Part shown: one piece after another, positions 21,828-36,550 of the stretch
Layout: every line of letters begins with the position of its first letter
Numbering within the stretch: the stretch's first letter is position 1
Assembly: GCA_902786855.1 (NCBI GenBank)
Contig: CADAEH010000004.1
Location: 1 to 64,000 of the forward strand
From: an uncultured Eubacteriales bacterium
Lineage (GTDB): Bacteria; Bacillota; Clostridia; Peptostreptococcales; Anaerovoracaceae
DNA: 64,000 nt
Reading direction: 5' to 3'
Made by a program: the position numbers and the translations under genes
The notes under the pieces: model-generated
The model's database searches: none
Told to the model about the DNA's origin: nothing
The model's input: the letters and a program-made list of their open reading frames with translations, nothing else

Positions 21828-24536
21828 ATGAAATTCAATCTGAAACCAAAGCGGGATCCATCAGAAAAACTCAGTCACAGGATACTCAGATATCTGCTTT
21901 ATCTTATCGCGGCAGGTTTTCTGGCTGTTGTTCTGATGATACTGATCACAGCTGTGAGTGTGGGCAAGATCAACAATGAGAGTCTGTATTCAAATATTGA
22001 GCGGTCATCGATCCTGTATGACATTAACGGAGAACAGATCGACACCCTGCACTATAATCAGGACAGGGAGATAGTATCTATCAATGAGATGCCCGATGAT
22101 CTCAAGAATGCCTTCATTGCTATAGAAGATAAGACTTTCTATCAGCATCACGGTTTTAATTTCAGGAGAATGTTCGGTGCCATATTCCAGTCACTGACAG
22201 GAGGGTCGCGGATCAGCGGAACATCGACCATCACTCAGCAGCTTGCAAGAAATGCTTACCTTGCAGATATCAAGAGCCAGCGCAGTATCCGAAGAAAGCT
22301 TTCAGAGATGTATATAGCATGGCGACTTGAAAAATCTCTGACCAAGGATGAGATTCTTGAGGCATATCTGAATACTATTTACCTCGGCTACGGCAGTTAC
22401 GGTGTGAGTGCGGCAGCAAAGACGTATTTCTCAAAGGATGTCAGTGAACTTGATCTGGCTGAGTGCGCCGCTCTTGCTGCGCTTCCGCAGGCGCCGGATT
22501 CATATGCTCTGATTACCAATGATCCCGGAGATGGCAGAGTTGAAATCACTGATATCAATTACTATACTCTGGATTCTCTGGACGAAGAAGCTGAGACAGA
22601 CGTGAACAGCTATACTTCATACGAGGCGACTGATGAAACGACCGGTGAGGAAGGGTCTGCTGAAGGTACAGGTTTCTATGCGAACGACTCTTCAAAAGAC
22701 CGTCGTGACACTGTTCTGAGCCTTATGACCGAACAGGGATTTATCACACAGGAGGAAGCTGACGCGGCAAATGTAGATATCATCGACATACTTAAGCCGA
22801 GTTTCCGCAGAGATGAGTCGACATATACATACTTTACTGATTATGTGGCTCAGACTGTCATACAGGACCTTATTGACAAGTACGGAATGAGCGAGGAAGA
22901 GGCACAGCGTACAGTATATACCGGAGGTCTGGAGATCTATACTACGCTTCACAATGATATCCAGAATACCATATGCGAAGAATTCAGCGATGACAGCAAT
23001 TTCCCTACAGCAGTGGATGACAGCGAAGTGCAGGCCGCTATGGTCGTGACAGAAGTCGGTACGGGATACATAAGTGCAATGGTCGGCGGCAGGAATGCAA
23101 GCGGTGCTCAGCTGTTCAACAGAGCTGTCAGCCCAAGGCAGCCTGGTTCTTCGATCAAGCCTCTGTCGGTATACGGTGCAGCACTTCAGAAGAGCTGTGA
23201 TCTTGCAAAAGCAGGAAAGCCATTCCCATATGTAAATTATGGATTTGACAAACAGGGAATTGACGGCTGGGGTGATTATATAACCGCAAGTTCGACCGTT
23301 GTTGATGAGCCATTGGAAATAGACGGCGAGGAGTGGCCTCAGAACATCACAAGGACTTTCTCAGGCCATAATACCTTCAGAACTGCGCTCCAGCAGTCGA
23401 TAAACACCTGCGCTGTAAAGATCCTGTGGCAGGTCGGTCTGGATTATTCCATGGAAATGCTGGAGAAATTCAAACTGTCAACACTTGTCACAGATGAGAG
23501 TCTTGAGTCCAACGATGTCAATCCGGCGGCGCTCGGTCTCGGTGCCATGACATATGGCGTTACACCACTCGATATGTCACTTGCGTTTGCAGCATTCCCA
23601 AGCGGAGGCTTCGTTAACACTGCGGTCTGCTATACAAAGGTCGTTGACAGCAAGAATAAAGAGATCCTGAAGGGCAAGTCAGAACAGTCCAAGGTGCTTG
23701 ATGGCGGGGTAGCCTGGATAATGACTGACCTGCTGAAGTCTGTAGTTTCTGATGGAATCGCGGGCAGCGCAAGGATAAGCGGCATTGAGGTAGGCGGAAA
23801 AACAGGTACTACTGATGATCTGTTTGACGTATGGTTTGATGGGTTTACGCCTGATTACTCCGCTGCGCTGTGGATAGGAACAGACCTGAATGTTGAGATG
23901 GTCGGAGGATCCTATCAGGCAGCAAGACTGTGGGGCAAAATAATGGGAAAGATCCCGGGTATCAGAGACGGTGAATATCTCGATATGCCTAAAAATGTAG
24001 TCAAGAAAAACGGCGAGTACTATACAGAAGGAACAGAGAAAAACGCAGGCAGAAGAATCTCGAAGTCTTCAGGGGGCAAGTCCAAGAAAGACGATTCTGA
24101 TAAAGAAGATGAAAATAAGGATGCTGCAGCAGGTGGCGTTCCTGATGTAAACCAGGGCTCCGGTTCTTCTGCTCCGGTACCGGATAACAGTTCATCCGGC
24201 TCCGGCAGCGGCAGCGGTGACTCAGGCGGCAGCAGTGTCAACCCTGGCGGCGGTGATTCCGGCTCCGGCGGTGGCGGCGGTGATTCCGGCTCCGGCGGTG
24301 GCGGTGGTGATTCCGGCTCCGGCGGTGGCGGCGGTGATTCCGGTTCCGGCGGTGGCGGCGGTGACTCCGGTTCCGGCGGTGGCGGCGGTGATTCCGGCTC
24401 CGGCGGTGGCGGCGGTGATTCCGGCTCCGGCGGTGGCGGCGGTGATTCCGGCTCCGGCGGCGGCGGTGGTGATTCCGGCTCCGGCGGTGGCGGCGGTGAT
24501 TCCGGCTCCGGCGGCGATTCAGGATCAGGTGAATAA
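21828..24536 (+). CDS. class A penicillin-binding protein (PBP1A type)
   Basis: Bifunctional peptidoglycan glycosyltransferase and transpeptidase, 902 residues. A cytoplasmic N terminus is followed by one membrane helix (about 21-45). The GT51 domain has catalytic E100 in the motif AIEDKTFYQHHGF and the second conserved region near TITQQLARN. The transpeptidase has S441 in SSIK, the SIN motif (QQSINTCA) and KTG at 658-660. An acidic insertion (about 245-285) separates the two domains. The last 100 residues are a Gly/Ser/Asp repeat encoded by a minisatellite. The start follows AGGAG. Coupled with glmS upstream. Confidence 0.95.
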   Translation: MKFNLKPKRDPSEKLSHRILRYLLYLIAAGFLAVVLMILITAVSVGKINNESLYSNIERSSILYDINGEQIDTLHYNQDREIVSINEMPDDLKNAFIAIEDKTFYQHHGFNFRRMFGAIFQSLTGGSRISGTSTITQQLARNAYLADIKSQRSIRRKLSEMYIAWRLEKSLTKDEILEAYLNTIYLGYGSYGVSAAAKTYFSKDVSELDLAECAALAALPQAPDSYALITNDPGDGRVEITDINYYTLDSLDEEAETDVNSYTSYEATDETTGEEGSAEGTGFYANDSSKDRRDTVLSLMTEQGFITQEEADAANVDIIDILKPSFRRDESTYTYFTDYVAQTVIQDLIDKYGMSEEEAQRTVYTGGLEIYTTLHNDIQNTICEEFSDDSNFPTAVDDSEVQAAMVVTEVGTGYISAMVGGRNASGAQLFNRAVSPRQPGSSIKPLSVYGAALQKSCDLAKAGKPFPYVNYGFDKQGIDGWGDYITASSTVVDEPLEIDGEEWPQNITRTFSGHNTFRTALQQSINTCAVKILWQVGLDYSMEMLEKFKLSTLVTDESLESNDVNPAALGLGAMTYGVTPLDMSLAFAAFPSGGFVNTAVCYTKVVDSKNKEILKGKSEQSKVLDGGVAWIMTDLLKSVVSDGIAGSARISGIEVGGKTGTTDDLFDVWFDGFTPDYSAALWIGTDLNVEMVGGSYQAARLWGKIMGKIPGIRDGEYLDMPKNVVKKNGEYYTEGTEKNAGRRISKSSGGKSKKDDSDKEDENKDAAAGGVPDVNQGSGSSAPVPDNSSSGSGSGSGDSGGSSVNPGGGDSGSGGGGGDSGSGGGGGDSGSGGGGGDSGSGGGGGDSGSGGGGGDSGSGGGGGDSGSGGGGGDSGSGGGGGDSGSGGGGGDSGSGGDSGSGE
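24243..24534 (+). repeat. 27-bp coding minisatellite in the PBP tail
   Basis: About ten tandem copies of a 27-base unit plus a shorter final copy encode DSGSGGGGG-type nonapeptides; DSGSG occurs eleven times by my count of the DNA. Copies differ mainly by third-position changes such as GATTCC/GACTCC and GGCTCC/GGTTCC. The GC content is far above that of the flanks. Confidence 0.92.
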
Positions 24537-27219: not shown

Positions 27220-27975
27220 ATGCTAAAACTCGCGATCTACGGCAAGGGCGGTATAGGTAAATCAACTATGACAGCCAATCTGTCAGCTGCTTTTGCTTCG
27301 CTTGGAAAAAAAGTAATACAGATAGGCTGCGATCCTAAGGCTGACTCAACCATCAATCTGCTGGGAGGAAGAGCTCAGCAGCCGGTTATGGAATATATCA
27401 GAGATCACGGCGATGATATAACATCTATCGATGAGATATCCGAGATCGGATATGGTGATATCCTCTGCATCGAGACCGGCGGTCCGACACCGGGTCTCGG
27501 GTGTGCCGGACGCGGTATCATTGCTACATTCAATATGCTTGAGGAACTTGAACTCTTTGAGACTGTCAAGCCTGATGTAGTTATGTACGATGTGCTTGGC
27601 GATGTGGTCTGCGGCGGATTTGCGGCACCTATAAGGGAAGGATATGCAGAACATGTCCTTATCGTGACATCAGGTGAGAAGATGGCTCTCTATGCAGCAA
27701 ACAACATATGCAGTGCTGTAGAGAATTTTGCAGACCGCGGATATGCGGATGTGGCGGGAATAATCCTCAATCGCAGGAACATCCCCGGTGAAGAAGATAA
27801 GGTCAAAAGCTTTGCAGCAGAAAAAGGTCTTGAGATCGTAGGAGATATCCCGAGAAGTGATGAGATCAATCACTTTGAAGAACAGGGCATGACAGTGATC
27901 GAGGGAGATCCTGAGCTGCCGATCAGCCGCAAATTCACAGAGCTTGCAGAGAAGCTCCTGGAGCTGGACAGATGA
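27220..27975 (+). CDS. nitrogenase iron protein-like ATPase (NifH family)
   Basis: A 251-residue member of the NifH/BchL/ChlL/CfbC group: a dimeric ATPase that passes low-potential electrons from a bridging 4Fe-4S cluster to a component-1 partner. The P-loop is GKGGIGKST (8-16). The two cluster cysteines are C95 in GCAGRG and C131 in DVVCGGFA. R98, the site of regulatory ADP-ribosylation in NifH, is present. It is shorter than true NifH (about 275-296). The start follows AGGAG at 27209-27213, and its stop overlaps the next start (ATGA). Neighbours are two component-1-like genes and hyp genes, not nif assembly genes. I infer a nitrogenase-like, group IV-type reductase and not nitrogen fixation. 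Confidence 0.93.
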
Positions 27976-29258
27976 TAACAGAACCATACAGTATAACCAT
28001 AAAAGAACTTAATGAAGCTGGCGCAGACAATATACCGCCGGAACTGGTACCGGCAACGCAACTGATCTACAGCTCGCCTGCAACTCTGGCTTTTAACTCT
28101 CCGGGTGCGACAGGCTTCGGTGTGAAGAGGGCAGGACTGGCCGTACCGGGCTCAGTTATGCTCCTGGTAGCCCCTGGATGCTGCGGGCGTAATACCAAGC
28201 TTCTGTCTGAGATACCCGGATATGAGGACAGATTCTTCTTCCTGCTGATGGATGAATCAGATATCGTAAACGGTGATCATCTGGCAAGGGTACCTGAAGC
28301 AGTCAAAGAAGTCGTTGAATATCTGGACGAAAAACCATCCGCGGTCATGATATGCGCTACATGTGTGGATGCTCTTCTCGGAACGGACTGGGACAGAGTA
28401 TGCAGGAAGGCTGAGACCCTCTCCGGAGTGCCGGTCAGACCGTGCTATATGTATGCCCTTACCCGTGAAGGCAGAAAGCCTCCGATGGTTCTTGTCCGGA
28501 AAGCGATATATTCACTTCTTGAGCCGGCGAAGAGGGACCCGCGTACTGTCAACATCATGGGCTATTTCTCCTCTCTGACTGATGACTGCGAGCTGTATGA
28601 CCTGCTCATGCAGGCAGGAGTGAGAAAGATCAACGAGATATCCAGGTGCAGGGACTTTGAAGACTACCGCGGCATGTCGCGAGCTAATTTCAACATAATT
28701 CTCAACCATGAAGCGAGAACAGCAGCTGACGATATTGCCGGAAGGCTCGGGATACCATATCTCGAACTGACACGTCTGTATCAGATCGATAAAATAGCTA
28801 ATCAATATAGTGCTTTCGCGGGAAGTATCGGTGCTGAATTTGATGACTCTGAATACAGAAAGCACGCAGAGAAAGCAGTGGCAGACTTCAGGGAAAAGTA
28901 TGGCAGCATAAGCATTGCTGTGGGAGAGATGCTCAATGCAAATGCTTTCGAGCTTGCTCTTTCGCTGGTAAAATACGGATTCAGAGTTCCTGAGATCTAT
29001 TCGAATGTATCCCGTGAAGACTATGTATATATAAGGCATCTTGCTGAGATCTCACCGGAGACCAGATTATTTACCAATCTGTCTCCGACCATGCTCTTCT
29101 ATGACTGCAGCAGGGCAGAGGCGGATCTTACGCTCGGAAAAGATGCTGAATACTATCACCCGGATTGTCCTAATGTGCCGTGGAATGAAGAGAAGCAGCC
29201 TTTCGGATATTCAGGTGTAACACGTTTGTTTGAAAAAATGACGGAGGCCCTTGCATGA
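27972..29258 (+). CDS. nitrogenase component 1-like protein, NifD-like subunit
   Basis: 428 residues of the oxidoreductase/nitrogenase component 1 fold. Cysteines that resemble P-cluster ligands are C70/C71 in APGCCGRN and C128/C131 in [14 protein letters not shown]; the first classical ligand position has no cysteine. C-terminal cysteines C379 (YDCSR) and C399 (HPDCP) are extra candidate ligands or surface residues. I cannot place the FeMo-cofactor Cys and His of true NifD. It overlaps NifH-like upstream and the NifK-like gene downstream by four bases each (ATGA), so the three are made together. The likely role is the catalytic or electron-accepting subunit of a nitrogenase-like reductase of unknown substrate. 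Confidence 0.88.
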
Positions 29259-30361
29259 GCGTAAAAGGACTTCACAAAATAATATATCCATTCGCACCTG
29301 ACCAGTCGGGAGCTGCTGCTGTGCTCTATGAGCTGGGCGGCATGATAATCATATGCGATGCCGGCGGGTGTGCAGGAAATGTGTGCGGATTTGACGAGCC
29401 GAGATGGCTCAGCACTAAAAGTGCGGTTTTCTCAGCCGGACTCAGGGACATGGATGCCATTCTCGGAAGAGACGATCTCCTCATAGAGAAGATCAAAAAG
29501 GCATCTGCTAAGATCGATGCAAAATTCGTAGCTGTCATCGGGACTCCGGTGCCTGCGACGATCGCAACGGATTATAAGGCGCTTAAGCGCATGGCAGAAA
29601 AAAGGACCGGCCTGCCGGTCATAACAATAGACAGCAACGGTGTTCTCTGGTATGACTCAGGGATCGAGAAGACATATCTTGAGTGTTTCAGAAAATTCAC
29701 CCCGGAGGATACTGAGAAAAATATCATTCCGGACTCTGTCGGAGTCATAGGTGTCACGCCGCTCGATTCAGAAAGTCTCAGTGCCGGAAAAAGGATAACA
29801 GAGACCCTGACAGCGGGGGGCAGCAAGAGAGTTATATGCTACGGCGTGGGAGGCTCACTTGAAGACTTCGCAGATGCAGGCAGAACGGAAAAGAATATCG
29901 TTGTGGCTGCTTCCGGGCTCAAGGCTGCCAGATATCTCAAAGAGAGATACGGAACACCTTACGAGTGTTCAGATCCGCTCATAGGAGAAGTACGTGCCGG
30001 TCTTCCGCTCAGCACGGAAGATCTTTACGGGAAGAAGATACTCATCATACATCAGCAGGTGCGGGCAAACGCTCTCAGAGATACGCTCCGCAAGGAGACA
30101 GATGATACCGGAAATGCTCCTGATATCACAGTAGCAACGTGGTTCATTATGGATGATGAAATAGCGGAAGAAGGAGACTTCAGGATCAGAGAAGAATCAG
30201 ACTTTTTTGATCATGTCAGTGACGGAGGCTGGGATATCATCATTGCAGACGGATCCTTCCGCAAAGCAGCAGGTGATTTCGGCGGCAGATTCATAGACTT
30301 GCCGCACTTTGCCGTATCCGGCCATTTTGCCGACGAAGAATCGGTCAGATTTTATACTTAG
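29255..30361 (+). CDS. nitrogenase component 1-like protein, NifK-like subunit
   Basis: A 368-residue component-1 fold protein, shorter than NifK (about 520). Near the N terminus C34, C39 and C44 lie in CDAGGCAGNVCGF. The place where NifK has its third ligand reads VIGTPVPATIATDY (94-107): the cysteine is replaced, a pattern seen in several uncharacterised nitrogenase-like proteins. It probably pairs with the NifD-like subunit and binds one shared cluster. The ATGA overlap upstream and the 13-base gap to hypF downstream place it centrally in the operon. The function is unknown; candidates by analogy include tetrapyrrole, C-S bond or other difficult reductions. Confidence 0.85.
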   Translation: MSVKGLHKIIYPFAPDQSGAAAVLYELGGMIIICDAGGCAGNVCGFDEPRWLSTKSAVFSAGLRDMDAILGRDDLLIEKIKKASAKIDAKFVAVIGTPVPATIATDYKALKRMAEKRTGLPVITIDSNGVLWYDSGIEKTYLECFRKFTPEDTEKNIIPDSVGVIGVTPLDSESLSAGKRITETLTAGGSKRVICYGVGGSLEDFADAGRTEKNIVVAASGLKAARYLKERYGTPYECSDPLIGEVRAGLPLSTEDLYGKKILIIHQQVRANALRDTLRKETDDTGNAPDITVATWFIMDDEIAEEGDFRIREESDFFDHVSDGGWDIIIADGSFRKAAGDFGGRFIDLPHFAVSGHFADEESVRFYT

Positions 30362-30374
30362 AGAGGTAATTGAC

Positions 30375-32840
30375 ATGCAGCATGCTGTCATTGCAAGGGT
30401 ATACGGGATAGTTCAGGGCGTGGGATTCCGCCCGTCGGTAGACAGACTTGCGAATAAACACGGCATAAAGGGGAGTGTCAGCAATAAAGGCCCTTATGTT
30501 GAGATAGATGCACAGGGCGAGGCGGCAGATATTGATGCTTTTCTTGATGATCTGAGGCACAATCCTCCTGAAAGAGCGATAATTCTTAAGCTCGACAGAG
30601 AAGATGCTCCGCAGAATATAGGAAAAGATGACCGCTTTTCTATCATAGAGAGCGCCAAGGTCAGCGGAGAGATCTTCGTATCTCCTGACATCGCTACATG
30701 CAAAAAGTGCAGGAAGGAATTGTTCGATCCCAATGACAGGCGATATCTGCATCCGTTCATAAACTGCACTTCATGCGGTCCGAGGACCACCATCCTTGAC
30801 GGGATGCCTTATGACAGGATACGCACGAGCATGTCTGAATTCCCGATGTGTCCTCAGTGTGAATATGAATATACTCACGCAGAGACTCGGAGATACGATG
30901 CACAGCCAGTCTGCTGTAATGACTGCGGACCTGAGGTGTATCTGATACCGACAGACGGAAGTGCTGTTTTGCCTGTAGATGTCGTATCATTGCCGAAATG
31001 GATGAAGGGCGGACCTGCTATAACGGAGGTCAGGCGCATTGTGAGCGGCGGAGGGATAGTTGCGATAAAAGGTATAGGCGGATTCCATCTGTGCTGCGAC
31101 GCCACCAACCAGGCAGCAGTACAGAAGTTGAGGGACATCAAGCCTCGTCCGGCGAAACCTTTTGCCGTCATGATGAGAGACCTCGAAGCAGTCCGCAGAG
31201 AATGCATTCTGGAAGAGTATCAGGAAGAGATAATAGACGGCCATCAGAAACCAATATTGCTGCTCAGAAAGAGAGACGGAGCGCCGGACACATTGCTGGC
31301 TCCCGGGATCGCTCCGGATAACCCGGCTATCGGCGTGATGCTGCCGTATGCACCGGTCCAGATGCTGCTGTTTGATTATCCTGACGGGATCACTATGCCG
31401 GATTGCCTGGTCATGACAAGCGGCAACGTATCAGGCGCAGCGATCTGCAGAGACGATGAGGACGCTGTGAGAGAGCTTTCGAGAATGTGCGATGTGATAC
31501 TTTCACATAACAGGCTCATAAGACTCCGTGCCGACGATTCTGTCATGGATTTTCACAAGGGTGAACCTTACATGATAAGAAGGTCAAGAGGCTATGCACC
31601 TCTGCCTTTCATGCTGGACATGCCTTGCTCGGGAAGTGTGCTCGCTGTAGGCGGTGAGCTCAAAAATACATTCTGTGTTTCAAGAAACCACCTCTTTTAT
31701 CCATCACCTTATATCGGTGACACAGAGGATATACGTACTGTAAGAGCACTGAGAGAATCGATGAAGAGGATGTGTGACCTTCTCGAGGCCGAGCCTGAGC
31801 TCGTCGCATGTGACAAGCATCCGAAATATAACACTTCAGCAGTTGCTCATGAGCTGGGACTGCCTGTGATAGAGGTCCAGCACCATTATGCTCACATAGC
31901 ATCATGCCTTGCAGAGAACAATCGGACAGACAAGGTGATCGGAGTGTCCTTCGACGGTACCGGCTATGGAGATGACGGCACTATATGGGGCGGGGAATTC
32001 CTGCTCGCTGACCTTGAAGGATATACAAGAGAAGGATACATAACTCCGTTTCTTCAGATCGGTGGAGATGTCTCCGCGAAGGAAGGCTGGAGAATCGCGG
32101 TGTCGATGATATATTCAGCGACCGGAGACAGGGAAAAAACATCTGCAATAGTTGAAAAACTGGGACTGTGTTCTGATCAGGAGCTGAGAGTCCAGTTCAT
32201 GATGGCAGATAAAAATATAAACAGCATCAGATCGACAAGCGCAGGAAGGCTCTTTGATGCTGTAAGCGCTGCTCTCGGTATCAGGAGGATATCGACATTC
32301 GAGGGTGAAGCATCCACTACGCTCCAGTTCACTGCTGAAAGGTGGAGTGAAGACCCGGGGACAGTGCGATACAGAAATACAGCGGATGACGAAGATCTGA
32401 TGCCTGCACCTTTTGCCTGCAGGGCAGAAGATGGAGCACTTATCCAGAACACAGACGAAATGTTTATGTGGCTGGTCACACAGAGGCTGAACGGCCGCTC
32501 ACAGGAAGAGCTTGCCTGGATGTTCCACCAGACACTTGCAGATGGTATTGTCGATATGTGCTGCAGGATACGGGAGAAAACCGGGGTGCAGATCGCAGCG
32601 CTGAGCGGCGGTGTCTTCCAGAACAGGCTGCTTCTGAGGATGTGTGAGGACGGACTTGAAAGAGAAGGATTCGAGGTGCTGCTGCACAGCATGGTACCGC
32701 CTAATGACGGAGGAATATGCCTGGGGCAAGCCGCTGTAGCTGCAAGAGCACTGTATAAAATAAAAGAGAGCGACCCTTCCGGAAAGGGCACAGAGACTGT
32801 TCAGAGGACAGTCGAACAGATAGATGAACTGCATATGTAA
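30375..32840 (+). CDS. hypF: carbamoyltransferase HypF
   Basis: Activates carbamoyl phosphate and transfers the carbamoyl group to HypE, the first step in making the CN ligands of [NiFe] hydrogenase. 821 residues. An acylphosphatase domain (1-90, R19 in VQGVGFRPS) is followed by two CX2CX18CX2C zinc fingers (C109-C112-C131-C134 and C159-C162-C181-C184), a YrdC-like domain (about 200-390) and a Kae1-like domain with the metal motif QHHYAH. All are intact. The start is the ATG 14 bases after the NifK-like stop, preceded by GAGAGG; the longer frame overlaps the upstream gene. It is clearly in the same operon as the nitrogenase-like genes. Confidence 0.95.
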   Translation: MQHAVIARVYGIVQGVGFRPSVDRLANKHGIKGSVSNKGPYVEIDAQGEAADIDAFLDDLRHNPPERAIILKLDREDAPQNIGKDDRFSIIESAKVSGEIFVSPDIATCKKCRKELFDPNDRRYLHPFINCTSCGPRTTILDGMPYDRIRTSMSEFPMCPQCEYEYTHAETRRYDAQPVCCNDCGPEVYLIPTDGSAVLPVDVVSLPKWMKGGPAITEVRRIVSGGGIVAIKGIGGFHLCCDATNQAAVQKLRDIKPRPAKPFAVMMRDLEAVRRECILEEYQEEIIDGHQKPILLLRKRDGAPDTLLAPGIAPDNPAIGVMLPYAPVQMLLFDYPDGITMPDCLVMTSGNVSGAAICRDDEDAVRELSRMCDVILSHNRLIRLRADDSVMDFHKGEPYMIRRSRGYAPLPFMLDMPCSGSVLAVGGELKNTFCVSRNHLFYPSPYIGDTEDIRTVRALRESMKRMCDLLEAEPELVACDKHPKYNTSAVAHELGLPVIEVQHHYAHIASCLAENNRTDKVIGVSFDGTGYGDDGTIWGGEFLLADLEGYTREGYITPFLQIGGDVSAKEGWRIAVSMIYSATGDREKTSAIVEKLGLCSDQELRVQFMMADKNINSIRSTSAGRLFDAVSAALGIRRISTFEGEASTTLQFTAERWSEDPGTVRYRNTADDEDLMPAPFACRAEDGALIQNTDEMFMWLVTQRLNGRSQEELAWMFHQTLADGIVDMCCRIREKTGVQIAALSGGVFQNRLLLRMCEDGLEREGFEVLLHSMVPPNDGGICLGQAAVAARALYKIKESDPSGKGTETVQRTVEQIDELHM

Positions 32841-32855
32841 TAGGAGGAAAAGAAA

Positions 32856-33065
32856 ATGTGTGTAGGTTTACCTGCCAGAGTGGTGACAGTCAAAAACGGT
32901 ATGGCACTTGTTGACGCATCGGGAGCTAAGAGAGAAGTATCGGCGGAGCTGCTTGAACAGCTTGATCCGGGCGACTATGTCATGGTACATGCAGGAGTAG
33001 CTATAGCTAAGATCACTTCAGATGACGATGAAGAGGCTGATGCACTGCTTGAAGATCTTTTTTAA
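32856..33065 (+). CDS. hypC: hydrogenase maturation chaperone HypC
   Basis: A 69-residue HypC/HupF chaperone that carries the Fe(CN)2CO unit with HypD and delivers it to the hydrogenase large subunit. The essential C2 (MCVGLPARVV) and the conserved histidine H45 (VMVHAGVAI) are present. It ends in an acidic tail. The start follows AGGAGG. It lies 15 bases after hypF and 14 before hypD. Confidence 0.95.
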   Translation: MCVGLPARVVTVKNGMALVDASGAKREVSAELLEQLDPGDYVMVHAGVAIAKITSDDDEEADALLEDLF

Positions 33066-33079
33066 TAGTTCGGGAAAAA

Positions 33080-34144
33080 ATGATGAAAGACAATAATAAG
33101 AAATCTGCACGGGAGATAATCCAGAACTACGACGGGCCGAAACTCCGCATCATGGAGGTGTGCGGTACACACACTCATGAGATTTTCAGGCTCGGCGTGA
33201 GGAATATACTTCCGGATAATATAGAGCTCATCTCAGGACCGGGCTGCCCGGTTTGCGTAACACCGGTAGGCTTCATAGATGAAGCTGTGTATCTGGCTGA
33301 AAAGCATAACTGCACTATAACTACATTCGGTGACCTTATCCGCGTCCCGGGCTCTGAAAAGAGTCTGGCGGGAGCGAGGAGCGAGGGTGCCAGAGTGCTG
33401 CCTGTATATACGCCGACGGATGCATGCAAATATGCTCTTGAGCATCCTGAAGAACAGGTCGTGTTCCTCGCTGTAGGATTTGAGACCACGACACCTTCTG
33501 CATGCATGGCCGTTAAAATGGCTGCAGAGCAGGGCCTGGACAATTTCTCGATCCTCACTGCCAATAAGACGATGACCAATGCCTATCGTGCACTCAAGGG
33601 GAGCGCGGATGCTTTCCTGTATCCGGGTCATGTCAATGCGATAACCGGTGCTGATTCATGTGCACAGCTTGTAGACGAAGGTATATACGGCGTAGTCGCC
33701 GGGTTTACCGCGAAAGAGATCCTGGCTGCTCTTGCAGTCACGATCGTAAAACTTCAGGAAGGCAAGCCGTTTTTCAAAAATTGCTACCCAAGGGTCGTTA
33801 CTGATGAGGGAAGCATTCCTGGAAAGCGCATGATGGAGGAAGTCATGGAGCCTTGCGACTCCGAATGGAGAGGGCTGGGTGTAATACCGCAGTCCGGACT
33901 CAGATTGCGTGAAGAATACGCGGCTTACGACGCGAGGAAGAAATTTGATCTGCCGGAGATCAAAGGCAAACCTAATCCGGCATGCAGGTGCGGGGATGTT
34001 CTTCAGGGAAAGTGCACTCCTGCAGACTGTAAGGTGTTCGGCAGGGGCTGCACACCGCTTCACCCTATAGGGGCTTGCATGGTATCAAATGAAGGAACTT
34101 GTGCGGCATGGTACGCATACAGGAAGGAGACAATAGATGGGTAA
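33080..34144 (+). CDS. hypD: hydrogenase maturation protein HypD
   Basis: The 354-residue scaffold on which iron receives CN and CO. The conserved motifs EVCGTHTHEIFR and SGPGCPVCVTP are intact, as is the C-terminal 4Fe-4S region with CRCGDVLQGKC, ADCKVFGRGC and GACMVSNEGTCAAW. The start could be either of two adjacent ATGs; the Shine-Dalgarno sequence is weak, which suggests coupling to hypC. Its end overlaps hypE by eight bases. Confidence 0.95.
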   Translation: MMKDNNKKSAREIIQNYDGPKLRIMEVCGTHTHEIFRLGVRNILPDNIELISGPGCPVCVTPVGFIDEAVYLAEKHNCTITTFGDLIRVPGSEKSLAGARSEGARVLPVYTPTDACKYALEHPEEQVVFLAVGFETTTPSACMAVKMAAEQGLDNFSILTANKTMTNAYRALKGSADAFLYPGHVNAITGADSCAQLVDEGIYGVVAGFTAKEILAALAVTIVKLQEGKPFFKNCYPRVVTDEGSIPGKRMMEEVMEPCDSEWRGLGVIPQSGLRLREEYAAYDARKKFDLPEIKGKPNPACRCGDVLQGKCTPADCKVFGRGCTPLHPIGACMVSNEGTCAAWYAYRKETIDG

Positions 34145-35141
34145 GACTGTAACGCTTGCACATGGAGCAGGTGGCAAGCAGACATCTGAACTTATACACG
34201 AAGTATTTGCAGCGCATTTTGCCAATCCGCTTTTTACTGCGGATGATGCAGCTGTTCTGGAGATGGAGGCAGGAAGACTGGCTATGTCTACGGATGGATT
34301 CATCGTTTCTCCGTATGAATTCCCAGGTGGAAACGTCGGAAAGCTTTCCATATGCGGCACTGTAAATGACCTTGCATGCATGGGAGCAGAGCCGCTCTAT
34401 CTGACATGTGCTTTTGTCATAGAAGAAGGCTTCCCGATGGACAAGCTTGAAGAGATCGCTGCTGCCATGGAGAAAACAGCTGCTGAGGCCGGAGTCAGGA
34501 TCGTTGCCGGAGATACCAAGGTAGCCGGCAAGGGACAGGTCGACGGCGTGTTTATCACCACCACCGGCATCGGCCGTATAAGAGATGGTGTGAAGACCGG
34601 CGGCGCGCTGGCAAAACCGGGTGATTCTGTGATCGTGACCGGTGATGTCGGAAGACACGGATGCACGATCCTTCTTGCCCGCAATGAATACGGTATAGAA
34701 GCTGATGTCGACAGCGACTGCGCACCGCTCTGGGGTGCTGTGGATTCTGTTCTGTCAGCTACGGATGATGTCCATGTCATCAGAGATGCTACACGCGGCG
34801 GTGTCGGAACTGTCCTGTACGAGATAGCTGAGCAGAGCAATGTAGGTGTAAGGATCGAGGCTGAGTCTGTTCCGGTCGACGGAGCAGTCAAGGGTGTCTG
34901 CGGAATGCTTGGACTTGAACCGCTTTATCTTGCATGTGAAGGCCGCCTTGTGATCATCGCACCTAAGGAAGAGTCAGATAAGATACTCGAAGTGCTGAAG
35001 CAGGGAAAATACACCGGGAATGCTGCTGTTATAGGAGAGATAACAGACGAGATGCCAGGCAAAGTCATAATGACTACTGAGATAGGCGCAGAGACACTTC
35101 TGCCGCAGCCTGGCGGTGAATTATTGCCGAGGATATGCTGA
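34137..35141 (+). CDS. hypE: hydrogenase maturation protein HypE
   Basis: 334 residues of the PurM/ThiL-like ATP-binding fold. HypE receives the carbamoyl group on its C-terminal cysteine and dehydrates it to a thiocyanate. The protein ends in the required PRIC, so the acceptor cysteine is present. The N-terminal HGAGGKQTSELI motif is intact. The start follows AAGGAGA inside the end of hypD. It is the last gene of the coupled series; hypA, hypB and any hydrogenase subunit or endopeptidase are missing from this window. Confidence 0.95.
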   Translation: MGKTVTLAHGAGGKQTSELIHEVFAAHFANPLFTADDAAVLEMEAGRLAMSTDGFIVSPYEFPGGNVGKLSICGTVNDLACMGAEPLYLTCAFVIEEGFPMDKLEEIAAAMEKTAAEAGVRIVAGDTKVAGKGQVDGVFITTTGIGRIRDGVKTGGALAKPGDSVIVTGDVGRHGCTILLARNEYGIEADVDSDCAPLWGAVDSVLSATDDVHVIRDATRGGVGTVLYEIAEQSNVGVRIEAESVPVDGAVKGVCGMLGLEPLYLACEGRLVIIAPKEESDKILEVLKQGKYTGNAAVIGEITDEMPGKVIMTTEIGAETLLPQPGGELLPRIC

Positions 35142-35446: not shown

Positions 35447-36550
35447 GTGCAAAAAAACGAGATATGGCGTTCCTACGGAACAGATTATAAGGAAATGACA
35501 AAAAGGCTGCTCCTGCAGTCAGGTCTTGACGGACTGCTTCCGGCACCTTCGGTCCATGATCCTTGTATAGCCATCAAGCCTAACCTGGTGACACCTTCAC
35601 CTGCTTCTTTCGGTGCAACTACACATCCCGAGATCGTAGCGGGAATAATCGAGTTCCTTAAAGAGCGGGGTTACCGCAATATTGTCATAGCGGAAGGTTC
35701 CTGGGTCGGCGATAAGACATCAGAGGCTTTCGAGTACTGCGGATACATCGCACTGGCAAAGGAGTACGGTGTATCCCTTCTTGATATGCAAAAGGAGGAA
35801 GGTGCATCTGTTGATTGTGCCGGCGAGGAACTTTCCATCTGCCGCTGTGTAAATGACTGGGATTTCCTCATAAATGTTCCTGTTCTGAAGGGACACTGCC
35901 AGACGCATATCACATGTGCTCTTAAGAACATAAAGGGTCTGATACCTAATGACGAGAAAAGAAGATTCCATACGATGGGCCTTCACAGACCTATCGCACA
36001 TCTTAACGCCGGTATCAGACAGGATTTCATCGTAATAGATCATATATGCGGAGATCTCAGTTTTGAGGAGGGCGGGAGTCCTGTAACGCGTAACTGCATT
36101 ATGACAGCTCTCGATCCGGTTCTGGTCGATGCCTATGTCTGCTCTCTTCTGGATTACAGTACTGAGGATGTGCCGTATATAGGAATGGCTGAAGAACTTG
36201 GTATCGGCAGCAGCGACCTTTCTGCCATGAGACTCATAACATGTGAAGGCGAGCCATATGAAGATCTTCCGGCCCGGAATATTCTGGATGTCAGCTATGC
36301 AGTTGATGATGTGGATTCATGCAGTGCTTGCTATGGTATCCTGATCCCGGCACTTGAAAGGCTCGAAAGTGAAGGCCTTCTTGCCAGGCTTCCTGACAGG
36401 ATCGCAATCGGACAAGGCCACAGAGGCAAAACCGGGACCCTTGGAATAGGAAACTGCACAGCAGGCTTTGACACATGCGTCAGGGGATGTCCGCCTGAAG
36501 AGGAGGATATATATACGCAGCTGAAGAAGCTTGCCCTGAAGACACCATAA
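35447..36550 (+). CDS. DUF362 domain-containing protein
   Basis: 367 residues with the DUF362 hallmarks IKPNLVTP, VLKGHCQTHITCALKNIKG and a central SWVGDKT-type loop. The family often occurs with ferredoxin domains and redox enzymes but has no settled function. The C-terminal part has five clustered cysteines (CSACYG, GNCTAGFDTC, RGCPP) that could bind a metal cluster. The start is GTG after AAGGGAG. It follows the nitrogenase-like/hyp operon after a small membrane protein gene, so a role in the same metabolism is possible but unproven. Confidence 0.83.
   Translation: MQKNEIWRSYGTDYKEMTKRLLLQSGLDGLLPAPSVHDPCIAIKPNLVTPSPASFGATTHPEIVAGIIEFLKERGYRNIVIAEGSWVGDKTSEAFEYCGYIALAKEYGVSLLDMQKEEGASVDCAGEELSICRCVNDWDFLINVPVLKGHCQTHITCALKNIKGLIPNDEKRRFHTMGLHRPIAHLNAGIRQDFIVIDHICGDLSFEEGGSPVTRNCIMTALDPVLVDAYVCSLLDYSTEDVPYIGMAEELGIGSSDLSAMRLITCEGEPYEDLPARNILDVSYAVDDVDSCSACYGILIPALERLESEGLLARLPDRIAIGQGHRGKTGTLGIGNCTAGFDTCVRGCPPEEEDIYTQLKKLALKTP

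Follow-up and report, generated by a model that had tools for sequence, protein, structure and literature searches.

The H-cluster of [FeFe] hydrogenase (HydA) is matured by HydE, HydF and HydG, and HydG, a tyrosine lyase, is taken as the dedicated source of its CO and CN ligands. For [NiFe] hydrogenase, HypF and HypE convert carbamoyl phosphate into thiocyanate on HypE, and HypCD places the CN on iron. CfbCD, protochlorophyllide reductase, Mar and Nfl are two-component, ATP-driven reductases that pair one NifH with component 1 subunits. Here we describe an operon in which genes of the last two kinds are combined. It lies in a stretch of 64,000 nucleotides (the window) of contig CADAEH010000004.1 (assembly GCA_902786855.1), from an uncultured Eubacteriales bacterium of the family Anaerovoracaceae, where seven consecutive plus-strand genes, nifH-D-K-hypF-C-D-E, run unbroken from position 27220 to 35141. 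Judging from gene content and gene neighbourhoods, we put at roughly 70% the probability that this operon belongs to a HydG-independent route to the H-cluster, in which a precursor made by its nitrogenase-like trio (nif1) together with HypFCDE is finished by a second nitrogenase-like set (nif2), HydE and HydF. The nitrogenase-like enzyme and HypFCDE would probably help to supply CO and CN in place of HydG in certain anaerobes of the gut and rumen, which seem to lack HydG. The genes of the operon are as follows.

27220-27975, plus strand: nifH1, NifH-like ATP-dependent reductase, 251 amino acids (Fer4_NifH, 299 bits; TIGR01287, 317.6 bits, below the cut-off of 394)
27972-29258, plus strand: nifD1, nitrogenase component 1-like subunit, 428 amino acids, with the component 1 fold (PF00148, Oxidored_nitro, 97 bits)
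29255-30361, plus strand: nifK1, nitrogenase component 1-like subunit, 368 amino acids (PF00148, Oxidored_nitro, 70 bits)
30375-32840, plus strand: hypF, carbamoyltransferase, 821 amino acids from the ATG at 30375 (TIGR00143, 714 bits; cut-off 466)
32856-33065, plus strand: hypC, iron-carrier chaperone, 69 amino acids (TIGR00074, 68 bits; cut-off 48)
33080-34144, plus strand: hypD, ligand-assembly scaffold, 354 amino acids (TIGR00075, 388 bits; cut-off 193)
34137-35141, plus strand: hypE, thiocyanate carrier, 334 amino acids, the last of them Cys (TIGR02124, 417 bits; cut-off 252)

These coordinates and family models confirmed the seven-gene operon and its junctions as described in an initial annotation made from the sequence alone: nifH/nifD and nifD/nifK are joined by ATGA overlaps, 13 bases separate nifK from hypF, and hypD and hypE overlap by 8 bases. 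HypF, HypC, HypD and HypE all exceed their NCBIfam cut-offs. The nif-like trio has good Pfam matches but remains below the cut-offs of the models for nitrogenase, CfbCD and protochlorophyllide reductase (bits against cut-off: CfbC, 299/402; BchL, 208/345; CfbD, 21/268; BchB, 31/490), and the scores against the nifD and nifE models are far below the cut-offs. A DUF362 gene (35447-36550) directly follows the operon in the window; the relatives fetched have other genes past hypE, and because the genes 3' of hypE vary in this way, we dropped it as a member of the operon.

The catalytic residues of the Hyp proteins, including the HypF motifs, are intact in the window operon and 98-100% conserved among 78-86 homologues, as expected from the HypCDEF system of [NiFe] hydrogenase, all four proteins of which are present. 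HypC Cys2 is kept in 81/81 homologues, HypD Cys28, Cys56 and Cys59 and the cluster cysteines are conserved among 83 homologues (motifs CGTHT and GPGCPVC), and 99% of 78 HypE homologues end in Cys. The resemblance of the trio to NifHDK and to the scaffold NifEN lies in the NifH cluster cysteines (Cys95 and Cys131, in 99/99 NifH1 homologues), the P-loop and the component 1 fold. The predicted structure of NifD1 (pLDDT 83.9) has this fold, with 4wes_B as the top match (TM 0.69), and NifE is the nearest solved sequence by profile search. Cys71 and Cys131 of NifD1 (97/97 homologues) were matched by eye to positions which we take to be those of two of the three NifD P-cluster cysteines, and NifK1 Cys39 is found in 88/88 homologues. 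The only NifD1 Cys and His residues conserved in at least 90% of the 97 sequences are C70, C71, H103, C128, C131 and C144, none of which fits a FeMoco-type ligand (presumably Cys275 and His442 in the reference NifD). With the low equivalog scores and the absence of conserved FeMoco residues, we rejected a true nitrogenase or a member of a named nitrogenase-like family.

In a FastTree phylogeny of 136 rows, the component 1 proteins of the two sets formed four clades (D1, D2, K1 and K2), each with full local support. Twenty high-scoring genes for nitrogenase and nitrogenase-like proteins from the same family fell outside these clades, and the pairs of loci L281 and L282 branched near the base; these same-family genes and the two pairs served as the references, the Mar and Nfl sequences themselves lying outside the comparison. 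A third, long-branched NifD/NifK-like pair was found outside all four clades in G316 (L175, 8607 to about 11083). The HypD proteins were compared using 33 of the 90 nif-linked sequences (hand-named loci, plus L047, in which the end of the contig truncates nifD, and that of G438) and 17 from hyp loci without nif; the nif-linked HypD of these chosen loci fell on one side of a branch with an SH-aLRT of 100. Co-operonic nitrogenase-like genes and a separate HypD clade thus distinguish the system from HypCDEF as described for [NiFe] hydrogenase.

The initial annotation had proposed looking for the same gene order in related genomes, and the order indeed recurs. Within the family, nifH-D-K-hypF-C-D-E is kept down to about 46% NifD identity amid varied surrounding genes, and nifD and nifK are fused in two genomes. 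In a sample of 61 close relatives, 37 of them from the window's genus, HypD was found in 9/37 same-genus genomes, all nine with a NifK-like homologue; in two members of the genus (G007 and G035) the trio and hypF lie at contig ends, where the sequence stops. We also scanned a collection of named genomes (84,980 species), which gave 523 encoded NifD relatives, and kept the best 80 as "named loci". The genes nifD1, nifK1, hypF, hypD and hypE occur together in 65/80 of these and in 36/36 of the full-length loci (21 kb or more), and the 15 loci without the full set all belong to the shorter ones. The carriers include Clostridium ljungdahlii, C. ragsdalei, C. carboxidivorans, C. drakei (L199), Eubacterium ramulus, Roseburia faecis, Coprococcus comes, Blautia, Anaerobutyricum hallii, Megasphaera and Lentisphaeria bins. 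Because the same order recurs across the family and the named genomes, the association of the nif and hyp genes is not due to chance.

One possible explanation is that HypFCDE matures a [NiFe] hydrogenase that is encoded far away or escaped detection, with the nif genes as unrelated passengers. HypCDEF has no other proven product, and the window genome (G000, 2.9 Mb) is only 87% complete. A search of this whole 87% complete genome gave no match to PF00374, and we rejected the presence of a [NiFe] hydrogenase elsewhere in it; PF00374 was likewise matched in 0/9 same-genus HypD carriers, whereas all three HypD carriers from other families in the close-kin sample have a [NiFe] hydrogenase. We then have one set of 148 family genomes, searched with seven families or proteins, in which nif1 was defined by a NifD match of E < 1e-100; the counts leave out rows below cut-off (three HypD, two PF00374, and rows of HydG and HydF, among them what are probably fragments in G377 and G433). 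PF00374 was over the cut-off in 61/148 genomes and absent from 13 of the 14 nif1 carriers. It was present in 55/59 HypD carriers without nif1, and therefore the search can detect the family's type of [NiFe] hydrogenase. The sole nif1 carrier with a [NiFe] hydrogenase (G438) carries hypD twice: a nif-linked copy that is 64% identical to that of the window, and a copy on the hydrogenase contig with 40% identity. Together with the conserved order of the operon, these results make service to a [NiFe] hydrogenase extremely improbable as an explanation, even though acetogens with the module do possess such an enzyme according to the accessible part of PMC9431212. For the window genome and 13/14 family carriers, the absence of a [NiFe] hydrogenase contradicts the second suggestion of the initial annotation, a redox system co-expressed with a hydrogenase encoded at a distance, and answers in the negative the question of whether all carriers encode such an enzyme; the clostridial acetogens of that paper are the exception.

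The statement that no hydrogenase accompanies the operon held for the [NiFe] type; an [FeFe] hydrogenase is encoded elsewhere in the genome, outside the window. The window genome contains three matches to the [FeFe] hydrogenase domain PF02906, and the HydA examined (593 amino acids, group A6) is over the cut-off, with the motifs TSCSP, MPCTAK and EIMACPGGC. HydE and HydF are also over their cut-offs, on contigs other than that of the operon. No HydG over the cut-off was found in this genome, the best match listed (61.6 bits against 312) sitting at the HydE gene. The same pattern holds for the 14 of the 148 family genomes that carry nif1, in which HypD (14), HydA (14) and HydF (13) are found together with no HydG (0), although the HydG model TIGR03955 is over the cut-off in 51/148 genomes. 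The 71 HydF carriers divide into 49 with HydG, 13 with nif1, five with nif2 without nif1, and four with neither; HydG thus occurs in 0/18 of the nif genomes versus 49/53 of the others (Fisher P = 2e-13, with kinship ignored and genomes treated as independent). In the genomes searched, nif and HydG are mutually exclusive. Compared with HydE/HydF/HydG maturation, the target HydA is the same, as are the maturases HydE and HydF in the window genome, and HydG is missing from 14/14 family carriers, with nifHDK and hypFCDE in its place. The initial interpretation, in which a nitrogenase-like system was tied to the HypCDEF product, was partly supported: its spirit stands in that the trio and hypFCDE travel together with a HypD clade of their own, and the destination, which lay beyond its reach, is likely to be the H-cluster of [FeFe] hydrogenase.

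In some relatives, the operon and the hyd genes share neighbourhoods. HydE or HydF lies within 28/80 named loci (19 each) and HydG in 0/80, and the identity of HydE was confirmed with NCBIfam in L055, L056, L093, L098 and L110 (521-574 bits; cut-off 255). In G113, the order hydA-hydE-hydF-nifHDK1-hypFCDE is found on a single strand; hydF is inserted between nifD1 and nifK1 in L092, as are hydE and hydF in L184 and L185; and L233, L240, L251 and L254 have the order hydF-hydE-nifHDK2-nifHDK1-hypFC(DE), a contig end cutting two of the four. In G283 (L132, 6332-7678), an aspartate ammonia-lyase-like gene stands immediately before hydF; ammonia-lyases are connected with the synthesis of the H-cluster dithiomethylamine in the portion of PMC11736057 consulted.

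These arrangements bear on a further explanation, namely that the trio is a new metalloenzyme that uses the Fe-CN/CO unit made by HypCDEF as its own cofactor to reduce some metabolite, the tie to the loss of HydG being indirect. The constancy of the trio and hypFCDE as a core (36/36 full-length named loci) would agree with this, as would the lack of HydE and HydF in the fetched stretch of 52/80 named loci and their distance from the operon in the window genome. Such an enzyme does not, however, predict the absence of HydG and the presence of HydA in 14/14 carriers each, or hydE and hydF inside the operon, and the conserved Cys and His residues of NifD1 and NifK1 are limited to those of a possible inter-subunit cluster. 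We consider it unlikely.

In genomes with HydG, the order hydE-hydG-hydF was found in 19/24 loci examined, and one genus (g21) contains both gene sets, hydE-hydG-hydF in G119 and the nif-hyp operon in G113. We built a tree from 56 HydE sequences, of which 33 came from nif loci (nif1 or nif2) and 23 from HydG genomes, after removal of two duplicate rows. It interleaved the two kinds, with 10 parsimony changes compared with 18 for shuffled labels; branches supported at 95 or above made at least three of the changes unavoidable. Because the HydE tree mixes both kinds, the nif and HydG gene sets seem to have been swapped for each other on several occasions, beside a HydE of the ordinary kind. This interleaving led us to reject a special HydE in the carriers, and the forced changes, with the two gene sets of g21, a single ancestral coincidence.

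A second nifDK pair, mostly with its own nifH, is present in 14/14 family carriers of nif1, beside nif1 or elsewhere, and adjoins nif1 in 60/80 named loci. In the window genome, nif2 is on a different contig from the operon, about 18 kb from hydF; the four PF00148 matches of this genome, as far as placed, belong to the nif1 and nif2 loci (no search was made for nifB). In the family set, each of the 20 genomes with nif has nif2, and 14 have the nif1-hyp operon. Since nif2 is also found in 14/14 family carriers, and alone in six genomes, nif1 by itself was rejected as the substitute for HydG.

The neighbourhood of nif2 differs between genomes with and without nif1. In genomes without nif1, 25/26 loci have one or more importer genes (FecCD permease, ABC ATPase, binding protein) next to nif2; in genomes with nif1, importer genes flank nif2 in 1/29 loci, of which six (G001, G007, G200, G239, G285 and G326) have less than 2 kb downstream and may conceal a transporter, as may G035 in this count, which has no upstream sequence. 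G027 has both the importer and nif1, and G391 has neither. From these neighbourhoods, the importer and the nif1-hyp operon look interchangeable. In four further loci (L107, L108, L109 and L173), nifDK of a sister clade to nif1 is mostly flanked by a binding protein, a FecCD permease and an ABC ATPase, and the fetched stretches contain no hyp or hydE match; these loci may belong to a wider group of nitrogenase-like systems linked to importers.

The distribution of nif2 (20/20 family nif genomes, against 14 with nif1-hyp) also raises the possibility that only nif2, HydE and HydF replace HydG, while nif1-hypFCDE has another function in the same cells, for example the making of a cofactor or an iron complex that is taken up by others. 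The presence of importer genes beside nif2 in genomes without nif1 and the single operon hydE-nifHDK2-hydF of G391 (L110), which has no Hyp, point in this direction. On the other hand, in L098, L092 and L103 hydE, hydF or hydA lies directly beside nif1-hyp and the sequence fetched contains no nif2, and the alternation of the importer with nif1-hyp ties the latter to the same pathway as nif2. A replacement by nif2, HydE and HydF without nif1-hyp therefore appears quite improbable.

Gene content, gene order, linkage and, for the genomes searched, the exclusion of HydG are observations, and every chemical step is what we infer. In the HydG-independent route that we prefer, HypF and HypE, whose residues are intact here, would make cyanide from carbamoyl phosphate, and HypC-HypD would load it on iron. 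NifHDK1 would act as an ATP-driven, low-potential reductase that gives electrons, and probably CO, to form an Fe-CN/CO precursor; the missing low-potential step that it drives would most simply be the formation of CO. The nif2 proteins, HydE and HydF would build the 2Fe subcluster of HydA from the precursor, and species with nif2 only may import the precursor, or an equivalent, through the FecBCD-type ABC importer. The composition of the 2Fe subcluster of the H-cluster, Fe2(CO)3(CN)2, equals Fe(CN)2CO plus Fe(CO)2, and thus, counting ligands, a single Hyp product would be enough together with one further step that delivers CO. A bolder form of this proposal, to which we give somewhat less than even odds, is that many anaerobes have a second natural pathway to the H-cluster, with HypFCDE and two enzymes of the nitrogenase family in place of HydG, with NifHDK1 as an anaerobic CO-ligand synthase for HypCD, and with import of the precursor from neighbours in some species.

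Several points weigh against the HydG-independent route. Hyp puts two CN on one Fe, whereas each Fe of the H-cluster carries one CN, and the ligands would therefore need to be rearranged. Six family genomes have nif2 without nif1 and HypD (HydA, 6/6; HydG, 0/6; HydF, 5/6), and thus Hyp would not always be needed, or would not be the only source of ligands. The operon of the window lies on contig 4 of its genome, apart from hydE (contig 18), hydF (contig 13) and the hydA gene examined (contig 2). Of the HydF carriers, four lack both nif and a HydG above the cut-off; one of these has a HydG fragment, and the other three are 76-89% complete. In another 39 family genomes, the PF02906 domain is found with HydF, HydG and nif all below cut-off, and thus HydA alone is no proof of the pathway; these genomes may have other maturation routes, inactive relatives of HydA or assembly gaps. 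The genomes are also non-independent samples, and many are incomplete.

The remaining points concern acetogens. In the part of PMC9431212 (Di Leonardo et al. 2022) available to us, HydG is assigned by motif to C. drakei, a carrier of the module, and to C. autoethanogenum and C. scatologenes; motif-atypical HydG candidates are described in other acetogens; and each acetogen, the clostridial module carriers included, has a group 1a [NiFe] hydrogenase. The same part reports that HydG was not found in 5/8 clostridial acetogens and that five clostridial acetogens have HypCDEF without HypA/B, offering a firm explanation for neither. It credits HypCDEF to [NiFe] hydrogenase, proposes no role for a nitrogenase-like enzyme, and contains the word "nitrogenase" once, in the title of a reference. 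The acetogens concerned overlap with our carriers, in that C. ljungdahlii, C. ragsdalei, C. carboxidivorans and C. drakei have the module, and the operon would also explain the absence of HydG from the five. As C. ljungdahlii carries the module, the proposal is testable in a cultured strain.

A group of gut and rumen bacteria without HydG, as far as searched, keeps HydA and HydF (and HydE where examined), which the operon would explain. If the proposal is correct, the Hyp proteins would serve enzymes other than [NiFe] hydrogenases, and members of the nitrogenase superfamily would help to build the cofactor of another enzyme. Should the chemistry hold, the system would be a variant of H-cluster maturation and, to our knowledge, its first HydG-free route. 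The operon also bears on the origin of the CO ligand in anaerobes; the source of CO for the Hyp-built centre is described there as still unresolved in the text seen of PMC12134894.

Titles and opening lines of abstracts, a survey that largely covered literature other than subscription papers and preprints, yielded nothing joining nitrogenase-like genes, Hyp and the loss of HydG. As far as the sections at hand go, NifD/NifH groups and Hyp groups are each separately linked to hydrogen production (PMC3515406), HypA/B-type proteins occur in an isoprene operon without HypCDEF or [NiFe] hydrogenase (PMC10134865), nitrogenase genes of the gut are widely encoded and little transcribed (PMC12578642), Mar-like genes are tied to sulfur metabolism (PMC10418091), and the nif/hyp module genes are not discussed in a transposon study of C. 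autoethanogenum (PMC9004356). Elsewhere in the window, a penicillin-binding-protein-like gene (21828-24536) has a long tail of GGGGGDSGSG repeats (24020-24536).

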